From Planctomycetota bacterium (GTDB lineage Bacteria > Planctomycetota > Phycisphaerae > Phycisphaerales > Phycisphaeraceae): a DNA stretch of 51,530 nucleotides. The stretch is from positions 1 through 51,530 of the forward strand of contig JAJRRC010000041.1 of the NCBI GenBank assembly GCA_024279865.1. Reading direction: 5' to 3'. Under the pieces are notes generated by a model that ran no database searches, was not told the DNA's origin, and saw only the letters and a program-made list of their open reading frames with translations. This document shows, in pieces, positions 5,022 through 47,164 of this stretch (positions are counted from its first letter, which is position 1; each line of letters starts with the position of its first letter). The position numbers were made by a program, and so were the translations under genes.

Positions 5022-7001
5022 ATGACTGAAAAAGAGCAAGCGCCCCTCATCGTCGGCATTGACCTGGGAACGACCAATAGCCTTGTCGCCTGGTGCGACC
5101 AAGCAGGCCCTCGCATTTTAGAAAATGCAGACCAAGCCCGTTCACTGCCCAGCGTGGTCCGCTTTGATAGCCAAGGAGAACCTCAGGCCATCGGGCAAGC
5201 GGCCCATGACCATGCAGTGGAATACCCCACAGAAACGGTCTTCAGCGTCAAGCGGCTGATGGGTCGTGGGATGGCTGATGTCCAGTCGGAGTTGGCTTAT
5301 TTGCCTTATGAGGTGGTTGGGGGCGAACAGGACACCGCGCGGGTTCAAATCGGCGAAGCCGTGCTTTCACCCCAGCAGATTAGCGCGATCCTGTTACGCG
5401 AATTAAAAGAACAAGCAGAACAAGCCCTCGGCCAACCGGTTGAAAAAGCAGTGGTCACGGTGCCCGCGTATTTTGATGATGCCCAACGGCAAGCCACCCG
5501 CGATGCCGGCCGTATTGCCGGGCTGGACGTGGTGCGGATTGTCAATGAGCCCACAGCCGCTGCGTTGGCGTATGACCTGGGACGAGCCGAACCCCAGGCA
5601 GACGTTCATCTGAACACCAAGGTCAATCCAGAGGCTTGTACCACCCCCCCCCCGGAAGCCCCCCCGGAAGCCCCCCCGGAAGCCTCCCCGGAAGTGGCAG
5701 ACGCGAAAGCAAGTGTGCTTGCGGCTATTTCCCCAGCCTCCATCATTGCAGTCTTTGACCTTGGCGGCGGCACGTTTGATGTGTCAATCCTTCGCCTCCA
5801 AAAAACCGAACAAGGCACCGTCGATCAAGTCCTCGCCACCGCGGGCGATACCCATCTCGGCGGTGACGACATTGACCGGGCGATTGTTGAATTGATCCAA
5901 AAAGAAATTCAAGAGCAGTTCGGCACAGACATCGCGTTTCCCCCCAGCACCCGACAAGCCTTTCGGCAATTTGCCGAGGCCACCAAAAAACAACTTTCCC
6001 AAGCCACCTCCGCGACCATCGAAGTGGACCTTGGTGAAGACCGTCTGTACCAACGAACACTCACACGTGAGGAATTGCAGACCTTTCTTGATCCATGGAT
6101 TGATCGGGCGATGGTTTGCTGTCGTCAAGCAATCAAGAGTGCCAAACTCACAGCAGACAAAATTGACCGGGTGATTCTTGTCGGCGGGTCCACACGGATT
6201 CCGGCTGTCCGCCAAGCCGTCGCAGAATTGTTTGGAACCGATCCCTACACCGCGTTGAACCCTGACGAGGTGGTGGCATTGGGTGCGGCTGTTCAGGCAT
6301 CCATTCTCGCAGGCGTGAACCGGGACCGACTGTTGCTCGATGTGATTCCGCTGTCCTTGGGTATTGAAACCTTGGGCGGAGCGGTCGCCAAACTCATCAT
6401 GGCCAACAGCACCATCCCAGCCCGAGCGACCGAGCAATTCACCACCCATGCTGACGGCCAGACCAACGTTAAAATTCACGTCCTTCAAGGTGAACGCGAA
6501 CTGGTCAAGGATTGTCGCAGCCTCGGCGAATTTGACCTGCAAGGCATCCCACCCATGCCCGGAGGCTTGCCCAAAATCGAAGTGACTTTCCTCGTCGATG
6601 CCAACGGCGTATTGAACGTCACCGCCATCGAAAGACGATCCGAAAAAGCAGCCCGCGTCCAAATGATCCCCAATCACGGCCTCACCCGCGCCGAAGTGGA
6701 CCACATGGAGGCTCAAAGCCTCAAATACGCCCTTGAAGACATGACCGCTCATCAACTGATTGACCTGAGAAACCAAGCCCGACTGGACATTCGATCCATC
6801 AAACGACAACTCGACAAAGTCGGCGACCAACTACAACCAGAGCAACGACAGGACATTGAGCAAAAAGTAGAAAAAGTTCAAGCCTTCATCGCTCAGGCCA
6901 GTCCCGATGCCAATACTTTTCATGAGGCCATGGATGCCATGGACAAAGCCACCGTTCGCCTTGCTGAGCTGGCGATCAAGCAAACACTGGCAGAGCCCTA
7001 A
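5022..7001 (+). CDS. hscA: Hsp70-family chaperone, HscA-like, carrying a repeat-derived insert
   Basis: Product of 659 aa. The ATPase domain shows GIDLGTTNS (residue 12), [24 protein letters not shown] (245), and [11 protein letters not shown] (about 387); the substrate domain shows [14 protein letters not shown] (about 439) and [15 protein letters not shown]. The latter region, with [15 protein letters not shown], is closer to HscA (the Fe-S assembly chaperone) than to DnaK. No isc or suf gene is adjacent, so a general chaperone role remains possible. Between AYDLG and [10 protein letters not shown], where HscA has under ten residues, lie about 55 residues, including [13 protein letters not shown] from a GC-rich array and [11 protein letters not shown] from a REP element. 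The ATG at 5022 has no clear ribosome binding site; the upstream open frame is repeat DNA. Confidence 0.9.
5641..5695. repeat. GC-rich 12-bp array inside the Hsp70 gene
   Basis: Four near-perfect units of CCCCCCCGGAAG in the sense strand, read in the P-P-E-A frame (residues about 208-225). It is followed 4 bp later by a REP-like element. Confidence 0.95.
5700..5726 (+). repeat. REP-like element, copy 3, inside the Hsp70 coding sequence
   Basis: GACGCGAAAGCAAGTGTGCT then TGCGGCT, orientation A. The stem GCAAG/CTTGC is kept while the left arm has drifted. It is translated without a stop as [10 protein letters not shown]. The GACGC end faces the array. Confidence 0.8.
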
Positions 7002-8912: not shown

Positions 8913-9533
8913 ATGTTGGCGGGCCCTTGGGGCTTGGGACGCATGGCACCTGACCAATATGCTCGGTGGTTTCCCAGTCCTTTGGCCATTCAATTGCAAC
9001 TGGATACCATTGATCAAACGCGCGCCCGTCTTGGGGCCACGGGGGTAACCCCGGTCGCCTTGGTGGAGTATGACCATCAACGACAAGCCGAGCGAGACGA
9101 GCTTCAACAACAGCTTCAAAAAACACGTCACATCAAAGGCTATATGGATAGCCTGATTTTGGCGGTGGTTGTGTTGATGGTGTTTGAATTTTTACTCTCA
9201 AGTCAGGCTCCCCCCCAAGCGGTGATTCGTACAATGCGTTTTACCTTGCTGAGCTTGTGGCTCGCAGGATTATTGGCTCAGCCGTTTTTGTTTGCGGATA
9301 TCTCCTTGGCAGTGGTGGGAATCGCAGTTGGGGTCGGTGTCTTGGCGATTTTTTTATTGTCCCCCCCCCCGGAAGCCCCCCCGGAAGCCCCCCCGGAAGC
9401 CCCCCCGGAAGCTCCCCCGGAAGTAACCCCGGCAATTTCCCCGGCAACGACTTCAAAAAAATCTCCGGTTTCATCTTTGAAATCTGATTCGGTATCTTCT
9501 GATAGTTTTACGAATCTCGGAGGGAAAAGGTGA
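8913..9533 (+). CDS. Membrane protein with a repeat-encoded proline-rich tail; N-terminus uncertain
   Basis: Product of 206 aa from the first in-frame ATG. Membrane segments are visible near residues 77-93 (ILAVVVLMVFEFLL) and 112-148. Residues 149-177 are the array product [20 protein letters not shown], followed by a Ser/Lys-rich tail. The in-frame codons before 8913 (GFLLIGGLVLG) look like half of another membrane helix, yet have no usual start codon. In the neighbouring frame an ATG at 8842 begins MMVASNIFHTILTGF, which would join it exactly if one T were added to the T5 run at 8883-8887. The gene may therefore start at 8842 and carry a frameshift. Its stop overlaps the next start (TGATG). 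Confidence 0.6.
   Translation: MLAGPWGLGRMAPDQYARWFPSPLAIQLQLDTIDQTRARLGATGVTPVALVEYDHQRQAERDELQQQLQKTRHIKGYMDSLILAVVVLMVFEFLLSSQAPPQAVIRTMRFTLLSLWLAGLLAQPFLFADISLAVVGIAVGVGVLAIFLLSPPPEAPPEAPPEAPPEAPPEVTPAISPATTSKKSPVSSLKSDSVSSDSFTNLGGKR
9360..9441. repeat. GC-rich 12-bp array inside the membrane-protein gene
   Basis: About five regular copies of CCCCCCCGGAAG followed by decayed ones (CCCCGGCAATTT), in the P-P-E-A frame. It lies at the C-terminal tail rather than in a domain. Confidence 0.95.
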
Positions 9534-29476: not shown

Positions 29477-32400
29477 ATGACGAACAGTGAATTAGCCACG
29501 ACTTACGCACCCAAAGAGGTGGAATCTCAGATCACCGACCGCTGGAATGAGGCGGGGGCCTTTGCAGCCTCGCCTGATGCTGCGGGCGAGTCTTATGCGA
29601 TAGTCATTCCCCCGCCGAACGTGACGGCCGCGCTGCACATGGGACATGCCTTGAACAACACGCTTCAGGACATTCTCATTCGCTATCACCGCATGGCAGG
29701 ACGCAATGCGCTTTGGATGCCTGGCACCGACCATGCGGGCATTGCCACGCAAACGGTCGTTGAAAAACGGGTATTTGAAGAAGAAGGCAAACGTCGCACC
29801 GATTTTGAGCGTGATGAATTCGTGGGCAAAATTCAAGCATGGAAAGACCAATACGAAAAACACATCACCGATCAGCTCAAGGCCATGGGCTGTTCTTGTG
29901 ACTGGGATCGACAACGGTTCACCATGGACCCCACTTGCACCAAGGCAGTTCGAGAAGCCTTCTTTCGGCTATTCAAAGATGAACTGATCTACCGTGGCAA
30001 ACGGCTGGTCAACTGGGACCCTGCGACCCAGACCGCTTTGGCAGATGATGAAGTGGAAGCTTGCGATATTGATGGCAGCTTCTGGTACTTGGACTACCCC
30101 GTCTGCGATGAACAAGGCAATCTCACCGGCGAACAGGTGACCGTCGCGACCACACGACCTGAAACCATGCTCGGCGACACGGCTGTGGCAGTGAACCCAA
30201 ACGACCTGCCACACGCCAAATATATCGGGCAATACGTCAAGCTTCCCATCGTCAACCGGATCATCCCAATCGTCGGCGACGATTATGTCGTCACGCCTGA
30301 CCCCAACTCCAGCGACGAAAAAGCAAAATTCGCCAGCGGATTTTTGAAAGTCACCCCCGCCCATGATCCCAATGACTGGGAAATCGGATTGCGTCATCAA
30401 TTGGAAGTTATCAATGTCATGGCCCCCGACGGCTCCATCTCCGACAAGCATGGCTGGAGCGATGTGGGAGACGCGGGTTTTATCTTGGGTCAATCCCGCG
30501 AAAAAGCGAGCAAAGCCATCGTGCAATGGTTCAAAGAAAATGGCCAGCTCGCAGAAGTTCGCCCTTACCGTCACAGCGTGGGACATAGCTATCGCAGCCA
30601 TGTGCCGGTGGAGCCTTACCTTTCAGATCAGTGGTATGTGAAGGTCACCGATCAACGCTTGGCCGGAGCTGCTCTGGGTGCGATGGCCAAAGATCAGCGG
30701 GCTGAGTCGGAGGGCTGTGTCTGGACGGACGACAATCCTTTTGAGCAAGCACCGCAGCAGGGCGATGGAGAATTAACGTTTTATCCGCCTCGTTACGCGA
30801 AGACTTTTCAGATGTGGCATGAGAATTTACGCGACTGGTGCATTAGCCGTCAGTTGTGGTGGGGACATCGGATTCCGGTTTGGACTTCCACGGGGAGGCA
30901 CCTTGAATTGAATTCAGATTTGGCGTGCAGTCAAACATTTGGCGATCAGCAATTTATTTGTCTTAAAACCGATGACGCCGATTTGATGCGTCAGCTTGAA
31001 AAGGCTGGTTTTGTGCAAGATTCTGACGTGTTGGATACTTGGTTCAGCAGCGCGTTGTGGCCGATGTCCACGATGGGTTGGCCCGAGCAGACCGCTGAAT
31101 TAGAAACATGGAACCCGTCGAACACGCTTTGCACAGCCCGTGAGATTATTACGTTGTGGGTGAGCCGCATGGTAATGTTCAATCGTTATTTGCGAGGCTG
31201 CTTGCCGTTCACCGATGTTTTTATTCATGCGATGATTCAAGACGGCCACGGGCAAAAGATGAGTAAATCTTTGGGCAACGGCGTGGACCCGTTTGATATT
31301 ATTCACTCTCATGGCGCTGATGGGATGCGGTTCACGCTTGCGAGTATGACGACTCAGACCCAGGACGTACGCTTGACGGTGGACATGGTTTGCCCGCACA
31401 CGGGAAAAATGTTTACGCCTAAATATGTCGGGGATGGCCGAGGCCACAAGGTGGCCGCTGCGATCCAAGACAGTCCTTTTGCCAAGGGCAAGCAGATGGT
31501 CTCCAGCTACGGCATGGCCACGGGCAAAGCCAAGCCCACCGATGCCATGCCTGTGGCTCGCAACACCAGTGAGAAATTTGATGTCGGTCGTAACTTTGCC
31601 AACAAGCTTTGGAACGCAGTGCGATTTGCACTGTCAAATTTAGAGAAAACCCCCGCCCCCGGAAGCCCCCCCGGAAGCCCCCCCGGAAGTACCCCCGGAA
31701 GTACCCCCGGCATCGCCCCCGGCACTGCCACAGAAGATTCTCTGGGAGTCGCAGATCGTTGGATTCTCTCAAGGCTCACCCAAGTCGCGGCTGCGACGGA
31801 AAAAGCGATTTTGAATTACGAGTTCAAACCTTATGCTGACGGGTTGTACGACTTTATTTGGCGAGAGGTTTGCGATTGGTACATTGAGGCGATCAAGCCC
31901 ACGGTGGCCAACAATCGAACCCAGCGAAAAGTTTTATCGGTGGTGTTGGATGTGACGTTGCGACTATTGCACCCGGCGATGCCTTATATCACCGAAAAAC
32001 TTTGGGAACGCCTCAACGAAGTGGTTCCTGACCGGACGCTTGAAGGCTTTGAATTGCCTGTGCATGAATTACTGGTCAAGACGGCGTGGCCTAAGATTTC
32101 GGATCAATGGGTTGATCCCCAGGCAGAGCAAACTTTTGCACTGATGAATAATCTGGTGACAGCGATTCGGCAGGTGCGAACGTCTTACAAAATTCCACCT
32201 CGCCAAAAGCTCGTCGTGACTGCCAAGGTGTCTGCGTCGTTGCAGGATCAGATTTTGCCTAGTGTGGACGTGTTACAAACCTTGGCGAGCCTTGAAAGTT
32301 TTGCGTTGTCCGAGTCCGGGGTCGCCCCCCAGGGTGCGGCCGTCACGGTGGTCGGTGAGATTGAACTTTATGTTCATGATCTGGTCGACGCTGAGGCTGA

Positions 32401-43133: not shown

Positions 43134-43278
43134 CGGGGGCAACCCCATGGTGTAAGGTTTGCCTAGGGCCAGCTTCCGGGGGGTAACCCAATCGCTCTAG
43201 GTTTTCCCAAAGGCCAGCTTCCGGGGGGCAACCCAATCGCTCTAGGTTTTCCCAAAGGCCGGTTTCCGGGGGGGGGGA
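43134..43278. repeat. Long-unit tandem array (about 54 to 58-bp spacing, three copies)
   Basis: CTTCCGGGGGG occurs at about 43173, 43221 and 43265, separated by GTAACCCAATCGCTCTAGGT and TTTCCCAAAGGCC. The second and third units are nearly identical. It is the reverse complement of the unit found at 1-175. It ends 3 bp before the T-run of the candidate RNA. Confidence 0.9.
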
Positions 43279-43280
43279 GT

Positions 43281-43460
43281 AAAAAAAATCAGCGAAGGTG
43301 CTAACTGATTGGTTGTGTTAAAACAGCCGAGGTTTACGAAACCCATGGGGCATCCGATCACCGATGCGTGGCCGTTTGGTCCAATTGGCGTCTCGTCCGT
43401 GAGTTGCCAATGGCTTCAACACAAAATCCGTCAGCGCGAGTCCGTTCTACCTTCGCTGAA
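43281..43460 (-). ncRNA. Candidate structured RNA, about 180 nt, closed by an 11-bp stem and ending in a T-run
   Basis: On the minus strand TCAGCGAAGGT (43459-43449) pairs with ACCTTCGCTGA (43299-43289), then T8. Inside, a second helix joins CTGA-GG-TTGTGTT to AACACAA-CC-TCAG, and AGCC to GGCT. Within that lie three hairpins: ATTGGC/GCCAAT, GCATC/GATGC and GGTTT/AAACC. There is no open frame of note. It starts about 60 bp after the mraZ stop on the same strand, so it may be an independent RNA gene or the mraZ transcript's 3' end. Length and closing stem recall 6S RNA, but the inner branched form does not fit well. No known family was recognised. Confidence 0.5.
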
Positions 43461-43522
43461 AACTCACTATCCCCCGAAACGATGACTTTGACTGTCCACA
43501 GCTAGAGTCAATCGTTATTTAT

Positions 43523-44029
43523 TTATTTTTCATCGGTGGGTGCCTTTGTGGGGCTCACCAACGCTTCGTCTCGCATGGCCTGTCTGGGATGCATCAAGAG
43601 CTCTGGTCGCTGCTCGAGCATTTGATTCATGTAGGCTTGCCATGCCTCTCGGTTCCATATTTCAAGGTGATCGTTTACGCCGACCACCGTGACATCGCCT
43701 GTCATTTCGGTCATCTGAAGCAAGTTTTCGGCAATGCGGATGCGTCCTTGCTTGTCTAATTCCGTCCGGCTGGCCAGTGAGAAGAAGAGCCTCTCGTAAG
43801 GCAATAACTCTCGCGGGCTGCGTGGACTCTGGTCCAACTGCTCTGCACGCTGCTCGAAACGGTCACCAGGCCAAACGCATAGTGCTTGTCTTGCCTCGTC
43901 TGGCGTGACGTACAAACACCCTTTTCCTTGAGATTCATGACCAGCTTGAAGCTGTTTACGAATTTCAGAAGGAATGGCCAGTCGATTTTTGGCATCAATG
44001 GTATGCTCGTAGATTCCGGTAAAAACCAT
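43523..44029 (-). CDS. mraZ: MraZ transcriptional regulator
   Basis: Product of 168 aa with two AbrB-like halves: FTGIYEHTIDAKNRLAIPSEIR (residue 3) and TELDKQGRIRIAENLL (about 90), followed by GVNDHLEIWNREAW. MraZ normally heads the division and cell-wall cluster and represses it. Here it is followed not by rsmH-ftsL-ftsI but by a candidate RNA and a repeat array, so it is a lone copy. AGGACGG lies 6 nt before the ATG. Its own promoter carries MraZ-type boxes. Confidence 0.95.
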   Translation of the reverse strand: MVFTGIYEHTIDAKNRLAIPSEIRKQLQAGHESQGKGCLYVTPDEARQALCVWPGDRFEQRAEQLDQSPRSPRELLPYERLFFSLASRTELDKQGRIRIAENLLQMTEMTGDVTVVGVNDHLEIWNREAWQAYMNQMLEQRPELLMHPRQAMRDEALVSPTKAPTDEK

Positions 44030-44131: not shown

Positions 44132-44782
44132 TCAAGGCTCGGAAATTCCCTCCCGAATGGCGTATCTTGCAAGTGCCACGCGGTCATGGACATCGAGTTT
44201 TTTCATGAGTTTTTCAGCATGTCCTTCGACGGTTTTAACGCTGAGAAACATTTGTTGGGCAATTTCTTTTTTGGCCAGACCCCGAGCGAGGTATCGCAGC
44301 ACCTCGATCTCTCGACCGGTCAGATGGCTCAAACGAGAATGGGTCGGAGAGGCCAAGTGCACGCCATCTTCATCAGCCACAATTCGCTGACGAACCTCGG
44401 GCGAATAATAGACCCGTCCGCCAGCCACCCGTTTGATGGCATTGATTACGGTTTCAGTTGATTCCGATTTGGTCAAATAGCCACGGGCATCGACCGCCAG
44501 AGCTTGTTCGATGTAGTGGTCATGAAAAAAAGCGCTCAGGAAAATCATGCGAGTTGCTGGCTGGGCGACCATGATCTGCCGAGCTGCTTCAAAACAGGTC
44601 ATGCCAGGCATGTCAATGTCCATCAAAATGACCTGAGGGCGAAGTTCTTTGGCAAGCTTGATTGCGTGCAGGGCATTGGGTGCGGTTCCCACGATGGTTA
44701 AGTCAGAATCCGTTTCCAATAAATGGCAAAGCGATTCTCGAAACAAGGCATGGTCATCGACGATGAGCAATGAAATAGGCAT
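44132..44782 (-). CDS. NarL/FixJ-type response regulator
   Basis: Product of 216 aa. Receiver domain with acidic pair DD (residues 9-10), phospho-acceptor Asp in MDIDMPG (about 56) and the conserved Lys in YLTKSES (about 105). LuxR helix-turn-helix LTGREIEVLRYLARGLAKKEIAQQ with VKTVEGHAEKLMKKL (about 150-195). It begins 3 bp after the histidine kinase stop, so they form one operon and are the natural cognate pair. It ends next to the mraZ promoter. Confidence 0.94.
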   Translation of the reverse strand: MPISLLIVDDHALFRESLCHLLETDSDLTIVGTAPNALHAIKLAKELRPQVILMDIDMPGMTCFEAARQIMVAQPATRMIFLSAFFHDHYIEQALAVDARGYLTKSESTETVINAIKRVAGGRVYYSPEVRQRIVADEDGVHLASPTHSRLSHLTGREIEVLRYLARGLAKKEIAQQMFLSVKTVEGHAEKLMKKLDVHDRVALARYAIREGISEP

Positions 44783-44785
44783 GAG

Positions 44786-47164
44786 TTACCTCTCAATCGG
44801 CTTGGATGATTCAAGCATTTGGGCAACGATCTGTTGCAGTTGGGACATGGGAAAGGGCTTGGCCAGAAATTGGGTATTGGGAATGGGAGGCATGATATCA
44901 AAACGCTTGGGATTGCCTGAAATCAAAACGGCAGGAATGTCCCGATGGGTTTGTCGCAAAAGCTCCAGGCATTGCATACCCGGGACGCCTGGTAGATCAA
45001 GGTCCAAGACTGCCAAATGAATGGCGTTGCCATGCTCTTTGATTTTCTGCGAGACCTCTGAACCTGTGACACAAAGAATCGTACGCCAATTCGCGTCTTC
45101 GAGCGTGGTCGCCACAATCTCAGCCACAAATTGATTGTCTTCTGCGACCAGAATCAACGGCTGCTTTGATTGGGAACCTTCGTTGTCAGATTTCGACGAG
45201 GCGAGTTTTGCGAGATTGCTTTCTGAGGCGGTCGGCGTTTGGGGGTGCAGAGGCAGTTGCGAAGGGGAGGCCACGGGCATGGTCAGCGTCATGGTGGTTC
45301 CTTGGCCGAGTTCGGATTGCACATGAATTTCGCCTTGCAAATTGATCACAATGCCGCGTACGACCGCCAATCCCAGCCCGGTCCCTTCGCTCCGCAGTTT
45401 GGTGGTGAAAAAGGGATCGAACATTTTAGACTGGGTTTGTTGGGACATGCCTGCCCCGGTGTCGGTGACTTGGATTTGGGCTTGGGGCGGATTGTTTTTG
45501 GTTTCTTGGATGATGACGTGCAAGGTCCCGCCCTGAGGCATGGCATCGCGTGCATTGAGGGTCAGGTTCATCACGACTTGTTGGATTTCGGTGGGATTGC
45601 CCCATACCCACAACGGCGACTGAGGCAAAACGGAGACTTCGACTTCGATTGAAGCGGGGAACAACCTTGCCAAGAGTCGCATGATGTCAGGCACAAATTC
45701 GCACAAATTCACAGCCTGTTTTTTGGCGGGTGGTTTTTTGGCGAACATGAGCAATGAATCGGTCACGCCACAGGCCTGTTGGGCGACACGTTGAATCATT
45801 TGCAAAGAGGGTTTGGCGGCATGGTCTTTGTCAATTTGTTTTTGTGCGACATCCACATGGCCAAGAATGGCGGTGATCAGGTTGTTAAAGTCATGTGCCA
45901 TGCCACTGGCGAGTGTGCCGACGGCTTCGAGTTTTTGGGTTTGGCGTAGTTTGTATTCCAGTTTGGTCTGTGTTTGCTGGGCGAGCTTTTTTTCTGTGAT
46001 ATCATTTTGAATCCCAATGCAATGGGTGACTTGCCCGGCCTCATTGAGGACCGGCGAAACCGAAAGCTCGCTCCAGAAGGGCGTGCCATCTTTGCGTGTT
46101 CCTTCAAGGGTGACATGGGCTTGGCGATGTTCTTGCATCACTTGGCAGAGCGTTTGACGGCTTGATTCATTGGCAAGAATATTTAAAAGAATTTCGCTGT
46201 GCTGTCCGACGACTTCGTGCGCGTCGTAACCTGAAATGCGTTCAAAAGCTTTGTTCACATAAATGACAGGGTTTCCTGCTTGCTGAGCGTCGAGGATAAT
46301 AATCCCATTGGCTGCCGAGGCCATCGCTCGTTCGCGGACTTGTAAATCACGCTCTGATTGTGCCCGTCCGATCGCGCCACTAAACATTTCTCCGATAATA
46401 CGCAGCAATGAAATGGTGTCATCCGTCCATTGTCGTGGACGATGAATCGAATCAAACCCGACCAATCCGATGACTTGGCCTGTACGCAAAATAGGGACGG
46501 TGACGAGGGATTGAATTTCTTCACGAAGCCATTCACGTTTTTCTTGTGCTGCTTCAGGGCCCAGGGCTTTGACCTGAGGCACATAAACGACCTCGCCTTG
46601 AAGTGTCTGCCCCAGGGCATAGGGAAAGTGGTCACAAGCAACATGACGCAAAAATTCACGTTGAGGGGCGATGTCCTTGCCGCACCATTCATGGGTGCAA
46701 CTGGCGGTCTTGTGGTCTTCACTGAAAAGGAATAAATAACTTCGATCCACTCCCATGAATTGTCCGATTACGCCGATTGCTCGGTTGATTTCATCATCAA
46801 CTGCAGAGAGGTCTAGGTTGATGAATCGCGTGGACATCGCAGACACCAATGCTTCAAACGAAGCGTGGTAACGAAGCTGGTTTTCAACGATTTTTTGTTG
46901 TCGATAAGCTCGAAGGACCAGCAAGAGCATCAGGCCGGTGGTTCCCAGCGTCAGCCACCATGCCGCCTCGGGCATCGCTTTGGTTGTGATGTGACTGTGG
47001 AGCCATTCAAAATTGATAATCTCAAGGAACAACGCAACGCAGCAGGCCAGCATGAGGCCAGTGGTCATGTCCAGCGAAAACCTGCTACGAGAATTGGCTT
47101 GCGGCAACTCGTATGATTCGTTTGTACGCTGGGTACGTGATTTTAGAATTGAAGACTCACCCAC
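44786..47164 (-). CDS. Hybrid sensor histidine kinase (membrane, GAF, PAS, kinase, receiver)
   Basis: Product of 792 aa from a GTG at 47164. Two membrane helices (about 33-50 and 72-86), then GAF (about 105-265), PAS (about 285-400: YVNKAFERISGYDAHEVVGQ), HisKA with H box GMAHDFNNLITAILGH, ATPase N box VVMNLTLNARDAMPQGG, G1 DTGAGM, G2 GTGLGLAVV, and a C-terminal receiver with Asp in LAVLDLDLPGVPGM. The PAS domain resembles LOV (SGYDAHEVVGQ) but has GQHSEILL where LOV has the flavin Cys, so blue-light sensing is unlikely. It phosphorylates the downstream LuxR-type regulator or passes phosphate through its own receiver. A TATAAT only 8 nt upstream suggests a leaderless mRNA. Confidence 0.93.
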   Translation of the reverse strand: MGESSILKSRTQRTNESYELPQANSRSRFSLDMTTGLMLACCVALFLEIINFEWLHSHITTKAMPEAAWWLTLGTTGLMLLLVLRAYRQQKIVENQLRYHASFEALVSAMSTRFINLDLSAVDDEINRAIGVIGQFMGVDRSYLFLFSEDHKTASCTHEWCGKDIAPQREFLRHVACDHFPYALGQTLQGEVVYVPQVKALGPEAAQEKREWLREEIQSLVTVPILRTGQVIGLVGFDSIHRPRQWTDDTISLLRIIGEMFSGAIGRAQSERDLQVRERAMASAANGIIILDAQQAGNPVIYVNKAFERISGYDAHEVVGQHSEILLNILANESSRQTLCQVMQEHRQAHVTLEGTRKDGTPFWSELSVSPVLNEAGQVTHCIGIQNDITEKKLAQQTQTKLEYKLRQTQKLEAVGTLASGMAHDFNNLITAILGHVDVAQKQIDKDHAAKPSLQMIQRVAQQACGVTDSLLMFAKKPPAKKQAVNLCEFVPDIMRLLARLFPASIEVEVSVLPQSPLWVWGNPTEIQQVVMNLTLNARDAMPQGGTLHVIIQETKNNPPQAQIQVTDTGAGMSQQTQSKMFDPFFTTKLRSEGTGLGLAVVRGIVINLQGEIHVQSELGQGTTMTLTMPVASPSQLPLHPQTPTASESNLAKLASSKSDNEGSQSKQPLILVAEDNQFVAEIVATTLEDANWRTILCVTGSEVSQKIKEHGNAIHLAVLDLDLPGVPGMQCLELLRQTHRDIPAVLISGNPKRFDIMPPIPNTQFLAKPFPMSQLQQIVAQMLESSKPIER

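Follow-up and report, generated by a model that had tools for sequence, protein, structure and literature searches.

What does the stretch of DNA immediately behind mraZ encode in this planctomycete? A first-pass annotation of the window, i.e., the whole 51,530-nt stretch of DNA that was analyzed, had proposed a new structured RNA at this place, with a perfect closing stem, inner hairpins, and a T8 run on the minus strand, and had considered a 6S-like role conceivable. The analysis described below indicates that the stretch probably encodes a regulatory RNA of the Csr/Rsm type that acts in trans and carries an antisense arm against the flagellin mRNA.

A conserved, folded RNA is linked to mraZ

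The window's copy of the RNA is ~180 nt long and matches covariance model R1, which was built from 8 sequences and used with a hit threshold of E up to 0.01, at 164.6 bits; the gap between the mraZ stop codon and the RNA is 62 nt (Table 1). The proposed 11-bp closing stem (P1) and the T8 run behind it are both present on the minus strand, and conservation among the inner hairpins extends to SL1, P3, and P4a. When folded on the minus strand, a 220-nt segment reaches −87.6 kcal/mol, compared with −63.2 ± 4.7 for dinucleotide shuffles (z = −5.22; 0/200). Since the plus strand also folds well (z = −3.19; 1/200 shuffles), the strand is not set by fold energy alone, and the minus strand was assigned because the homologues keep a constant orientation relative to mraZ. 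Together, P1 and the U8 run form a possible transcription end, and a T run of at least 4 occurs near the RNA 3′ end in 20 of 39 homologues from the window's family and in 1 of 8 from its sister family. The sequence scan revealed no promoter or terminator of standard type for the RNA.

Table 1. Coordinates of the RNA, its structural elements, and the neighboring mraZ gene in the window
Feature	Position	Strand	Basis or remark
Whole structured RNA	43281..43461 (5′ end 43461, 3′ end 43281)	minus	ends inferred from covariance model
mraZ	43523..44029	minus	Pfam PF02381, 82.5 bits; upstream of the RNA, same strand
P1 5′ arm UCAGCGAAGGU	43449..43459	minus	perfect 11-bp pairing with ACCUUCGCUGA, arms 149 nt apart
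P1 3′ arm ACCUUCGCUGA	43289..43299	minus	sequence; homologue alignment
U8 run directly 3′ of P1	43281..43288	minus	sequence
SL1, GA[ACGGAC]UC, first CsrA-type hexaloop hairpin	43438..43447, loop 43440–43445	minus	ANGGAN in 47/47 homologues
P2 5′ arm GCUGAC	43430..43435	minus	predicted fold; homologues read by eye
P2 3′ arm GUUAGC	43300..43305	minus	predicted fold; homologues read by eye
P3 hairpin, second CsrA-type hexaloop [ACGGAC]	43384..43411, loop 43395–43400	minus	ANGGAN loop on a stem of at least 3 pairs in 42/47 homologues
P4a hairpin GCAUCGGUGAUCGGAUGC, core = flagellin-complementary element	43350..43367	minus	core in 38/47 homologues
21-nt stretch complementary (one G-U) to own-genome flagellin 3′ UTR (contig C57 near 67909)	43348..43368	minus	

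An initial DNA search detected the RNA in 11 of 101 related genomes, mostly downstream of mraZ. With covariance models R1 and R2, the RNA was found in 39 of the 51 genomes of the window's family, and R2 also detected it in 8 genomes of the sister family, f6 (family labels f1 to f6 were assigned by the search tool). The counts exclude the R1 and R2 matches in genome G017 (both are the flagellin site, and the R1 match was removed from the family count), an antisense match at locus L024, and locus L088, a duplicate of L049, and they include genome G033, which was added by R2. We found mraZ upstream on the same strand at 45 of the 47 loci (37/39 in the family and 8/8 in f6), and the two loci without a visible mraZ lie on contigs that start 235 and 469 nt ahead of the RNA. 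The distance from mraZ to the RNA ranged from 56 to 421 nt in the family and from 12 to 56 nt in f6. Among the family genomes without detected RNA that were checked for mraZ, 9 of 11 lacked this gene as well. A two-motif pattern returned 11 named records, comprising Phycisphaeraceae/Phycisphaerales MAGs and the complete Planctomycetes genomes strain ZRK32 and syqfu.

Across four helices in 30 homologues, 95.5% of the pair cells kept their pairing and 42 cells changed on both sides, compared with 11.9 in shuffled data (0/500), in an alignment that leans towards structure because it was fitted to a model already holding most of the scored pairs; slid controls all fell far below the real covariation score. 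Specifically, P1 is 98.5% paired, with double changes at 3 pairs, and P3, a longer and freely covarying stem, displays double compensatory changes at all 4 scored pairs. SL1 is a two-pair hairpin, GA[ACGGAY]UC, whose stem is 100% paired in 29 of 30 rows with letters and shows an A-U to G-C change (the stem is GG/CC in G020); in f6, read by eye, the stem is GC/GC in G059 and G071 and UA/UA in G067. The core of P4a, AUCRGUGAUCGG, is nearly constant. The homologues also folded better than their shuffles (60 each), with a median z of −2.63 in the family (n = 39; 30/39 below −2) and −3.21 in f6 (n = 8). The conserved pairing therefore settles the matter against a chance origin of the fold; with a z of −5.2 for the fold, homologues found by covariance model, and compensatory changes in the stems of related genomes, the lack of which the first-pass annotation had named as a refutation, the proposal of a new structured RNA downstream of mraZ is borne out.

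The window also contains 33 copies of a ten-base word, CCCCCGGAAG (0.19 expected), frequently arranged in 12-base tandem arrays, with sites including 5649–5682, 9366–9423, 31656–31701, and 43173–43227. The same word occurs within a 45-base repeat located just past the RNA 3′ end (43135–43273).

The RNA matches no Rfam family

Rfam returned nothing at gathering score in the window and no match for the stretch at E up to 10. This agrees with the first-pass annotation, which had found no likeness to tmRNA; the genome's tmRNA sits elsewhere, on contig C33 (167.8 bits). The 6S-like role, by comparison, did not survive the analysis and is now so improbable that we give it virtually no weight: the RNA resembles 6S RNA (RF00013) in length and long closing stem only, has no match to that family at E up to 10, and has as its conserved features hexaloop hairpins and a flagellin-complementary arm, with no bubble resembling an open promoter. 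A 6S-like locus was identified elsewhere in the genome, on contig C95 (41.4 bits, just under the 46.4-bit cut-off; E = 7.5e-7).

The Rfam models of CsrB, CsrC, and RsmX/Y/Z gave no match for the window's RNA. Applied to 20 loci, the CsrB model yielded one sub-threshold match, at L196 in another family of the order, in the right place (19.8 bits, with a cut-off of 71; E = 0.2). The GacA-type upstream site, TGTAAG-N5..9-CTTACA, is absent from the window. Directly upstream of mraZ, at 44132–47164 on the minus strand, lie genes for a response regulator of the LuxR type and for a hybrid PAS/GAF histidine kinase in a GacA/GacS-like layout. We rejected GacA-like control as a candidate, as the regulator and kinase are not conserved at mraZ, with only kinase fragments in 8 other loci.

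Two hairpins match the CsrA recognition site

Structures of RsmE-RNA complexes define the CsrA/RsmE site as a hairpin whose six-base loop reads ANGGAN, and one CsrA dimer is able to span sites 10–63 nt apart (PMC7652899). SL1 and P3, whose loops are ~43 nt apart, match this published CsrA/RsmA recognition hairpin and are predicted to bind CsrA, which is encoded in all 51 family genomes, mostly in two copies. ANGGAN hairpins numbered 62 in 30 RNAs, compared with 3.2 expected. Each RNA contains 2–4 ANGGA, two hexaloop hairpins are conserved in the window's family, and the N of the P3 loop motif is A, C, G, or U among the homologues.

Similar hairpins were found downstream of mraZ in regions where the RNA model finds nothing. 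In 19 such regions (from f2 to f6 plus two outliers of the window's family), we counted 44 hairpins with a stem of 3 or more, versus 1.8 by shuffling; as controls, the antisense strand gave 1 hairpin, the upstream sequence 5, and the sequence beyond the regions 3. The number per region varied from 0 to 5, with none in the f6 genome G063 and in one f5 region. Outside the order, 27 regions behind mraZ contained 6 hairpins (2.6 expected), and mraZ is usually followed by an ORF of ~300 codons that is taken to be a putative rsmH. Because the arrays occur inside the order and not outside it, a CsrA-type RNA behind mraZ appears to be a trait of the order. These arrays constitute the strongest independent support for the CsrA-type reading.

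Two further arrangements were observed. At L191, in the f5 genome G066, three ANGGAN hairpins lie 700–1100 nt upstream of the mraZ stop rather than downstream, and the CsrA-type RNA may have moved relative to mraZ here. At three f3 loci (L085, L086, and L087, ~800–955), the interval from ftsK to the next same-strand gene holds two ANGGAN hairpins, one of them near the Shine-Dalgarno sequence of the gene after ftsK (start MIAHQKTVKSAHYDLRR or upstream); these hairpins likely belong to a CsrA-controlled leader. The weak order-wide R2 matches at these loci (three weak matches were read) are located behind ftsK and were rejected as copies of the RNA.

The P4a arm and the flagellin 3′ UTR are complementary and change together

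In many genomes, model R2 produced secondary matches that were short and covered P4a only. These sites are the reverse complement of P4a and are located 48–99 nt past the flagellin stop codon (167 nt in G047), directly before the terminator. A 14-letter pattern, GCATCRGTGATCGG, occurred 73 times in the 51 genomes, and its backwards control did not occur (0). Sorting assigned 28 sites to the RNA and 35 to the antisense orientation behind the flagellin stop codon; the remaining 10 are one in G006 (at a contig end), one in G017, and 8 elsewhere, 7 of which are a G variant.

In genomes with both sequences, an unbroken duplex of 11–25 nt (Watson-Crick plus G-U) can be formed at P4a in 36 of 39 pairs and is absent in three (G021, G033, and G078). 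The predicted duplex energy in the window's genome is −58.9, versus a mean of −28.6 and a best value of −41.9 for 500 shuffled UTRs. In f6, the RNA reads AUCAGCGAUCGG and the flagellin UTR reads CCGAUCGCUGAU, a co-change in which the f6 RNA has C for the family's U and the f6 UTR has G for the family's A. Pairing scores of the f6 RNAs were 37.4 with their own UTRs, 22.2 with family UTRs, and 21.8 with shuffled UTRs. Comparison of own with permuted pairs gave 34/20000 for the family, 4/20000 for f6, and 0/20000 for all, using permutations that ignore relatedness. Most family flagellin UTRs were located through the motif itself and are therefore unable to show how often the element is absent; of those picked without it (G021, G027, G033, and 7 f6 UTRs), 7 of 10 pair with the RNA. 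In G033, the core is missing from the RNA and the element is missing from its flagellin UTRs alike. Conserved complementarity and co-change with one specific mRNA, as found in the 36 of 39 pairs and the permutations, are expected of a trans-encoded, base-pairing antisense sRNA.

The two partners do not always occur together. The flagellin element is kept in G009, G014, G016, and G028, which are without mraZ and without detectable RNA; G037, also without detectable RNA, has an altered element, and none was found in the flagellins seen in G036, G042, and G003. A search for the RNA elsewhere in the element-keeping genomes without mraZ gave weak matches only, and the five that were read look like chance. 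Such retention of the flagellin element where no RNA is detectable speaks against a strict dependence between the two, and the element may therefore have a second role or linger after RNA loss. Among RNA-bearing genomes, no flagellin with the element was confirmed in G001, G010, G019, G026, G046, and G050, and that of G006 is cut by the contig end, in part because the assemblies are incomplete.

Could the shared element instead act as double-stranded DNA, as a site bound by a transcription factor or by a protein linked to the terminator, with no RNA-RNA contact? The element is nearly palindromic and its flagellin copy can persist in genomes without the RNA, both of which fit such a site. We nonetheless consider this reading improbable, as the orientation is constant (sense in all RNAs and antisense in all 35 flagellin copies), the position at which the partners differ has A or G opposite U, which RNA pairing tolerates, and the extra flanking pairs, which extend the duplex up to 25 nt, are genome-specific. 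An RNA that serves solely as a CsrA-binding sponge would account for the hairpins being the oldest and widest feature and for the arrays without the P4a element in other families, G013, and G029; its flagellin complementarity would be real and serve another end, e.g., a 3′ UTR decoy that removes the RNA and thereby frees CsrA. The flagellin mRNA of Campylobacter is known to titrate the CsrA system (PMC4894983). This reading is unlikely, though not negligible, given that 38 of the 47 RNAs retain the P4a element and that changes in the element go along with changes in the UTR.

A small ORF overlaps the RNA in the sister family

The first-pass statement that the stretch has no protein-coding signal stands for the window's family and fails in f6, where a conserved ORF of ~72 codons (..DWHPAxISDRxLxEL..RLGGAFAxIxLS..; loci L018 and L078–L084) overlaps the RNA. 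This ORF reads ISDR at P4a and GGAFA at the P1 3′ arm, SL1 sits at its Shine-Dalgarno sequence or start, and its frame is not open in window-family sequences. Pfam returned nothing for the small protein at E up to 1. Because of the overlap, part of the conservation in f6 may be coding, and the f6 locus is possibly a dual-function RNA/mRNA.

The overlap bears on whether the element acts merely in cis, as a structured 3′ UTR or terminator of mraZ or as a leader for a gene further downstream, and has no role in trans. Its constant position beside mraZ would fit, as would the terminator-like P1 and U run in about half of the family homologues and, in f6, the overlap with the small ORF start and the CsrA-type hairpin at its Shine-Dalgarno sequence. 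Against this, the next gene 3′ of the RNA in the window is convergent, the P4a core and the ANGGAN loops are kept more strictly than a terminator would need, and the flagellin match would be left unexplained, which makes a purely cis-acting element highly unlikely.

Proposed mechanism

In the window's genome, flgL, fliW, csrA, and flagellin follow one another in this order. A CsrA-type site over the flagellin Shine-Dalgarno sequence reads ACGGAG or AUGGAG in 11 of the 13 leaders read and ACGGAA in the other 2. Many flagellin leaders (L219–L234) also contain GCATCAGT..GATCGGA ~100 nt before the start codon, which resembles P4a in sense orientation. Pairing of this leader element with its own 3′ UTR was considered and rejected, with only 2 of 12 leaders at or under 10% of shuffles.

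The probable explanation given at the outset, a trans-acting Csr/Rsm-type RNA with an antisense arm against flagellin mRNA, predicts transcription of the stretch, CsrA binding, and a duplex in the cell as follows. The RNA would derive from the 3′ part of the mraZ transcription unit or be transcribed from a promoter of its own, and the long P1 helix would close it. SL1 and P3 would dock one CsrA dimer, and the RNA would therefore sequester or carry CsrA. P4a would open and pair with the flagellin mRNA 3′ UTR just before its terminator. Because a CsrA-type hairpin covers the ribosome-binding site in the flagellin leader, the most likely role of the RNA is to tune flagellin synthesis, with CsrA either removed from the message or brought to it. 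We favor a local antagonist or guide acting on flagellin, atop a general sponge, with a sign of effect that the sequence does not give; two conserved hexaloop hairpins are few for a sponge, which counts against this explanation.

Bacteria of the Planctomycetes phylum have a swimming/sessile life cycle, and the RNA may tie cell division to flagella building. As a more speculative extension, which we hold tentatively and regard as possible rather than expected, the RNA could be a CsrA guide that holds a dimer, finds the flagellin 3′ UTR, and delivers or withdraws CsrA there, such that a cell-division gene sets flagellin output. It could have started out behind mraZ as a sponge with several hairpins, acquired the flagellin arm in the common ancestor of the two families, and come to overlap a small gene in one of them as a dual-function RNA.

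Relation to known regulatory systems

The RNA shares with CsrB/CsrC and RsmX/Y/Z of Gammaproteobacteria (Rfam RF00018 and relatives) hairpins with ANGGAN loops, a csrA gene in the genome, and, in the order's other families, several hairpins. Unlike them, it occurs in another phylum, is linked to mraZ, has two conserved sites and a P1-closed fold with an antisense arm, and comes with neither an Rfam match nor a GacA-type site of the above consensus in the window. McaS of E. coli is a base-pairing sRNA that also binds CsrA, and SR1 of Bacillus pairs with ahrC mRNA in a reaction promoted by CsrA. Both resemble the RNA described here in having a pairing arm and GGA sites on one molecule; the latter differs from them in that it is unrelated in sequence and context and that its predicted target is a 3′ UTR element at the terminator, kept across genera. 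The existence of sRNAs combining a pairing arm and GGA sites is also noted in PMC7652899.

Two features are shared with the circuit of CsrA, FliW, and flagellin in Bacillus subtilis and Campylobacter jejuni: the fliW-csrA-flagellin neighborhood and the CsrA-type site that covers the flagellin ribosome-binding site. The latter is described for flaA of Campylobacter, an mRNA that is targeted by CsrA and also titrates it (PMC4894983). That circuit, unlike the system proposed here, is described as operating without antagonist sRNAs. In PMC7652899 and PMC4682653, CsrA-antagonist RNAs are described as a Gammaproteobacterial device and other phyla are expected to use FliW, with the latter source expecting Planctomycetes to use FliW instead of antagonist sRNAs. 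The literature searches made on Planctomycetes returned no publication describing a CsrA-antagonist RNA, or an RNA behind mraZ, in this phylum. Csr-type RNAs and base-pairing sRNAs are known kinds; their occurrence in this phylum, the link to mraZ, and the combined presence of a conserved flagellin arm appear to be new.

Here, an mraZ-linked RNA with CsrA-type hairpins is found alongside csrA and fliW in the same genomes, and in the window's family this RNA has a flagellin-specific pairing arm. If true, this would represent a second, independent origin of Csr RNAs and the first Csr-type RNA aimed at one mRNA, and would provide a direct handle on division-motility coupling in these Planctomycetes.
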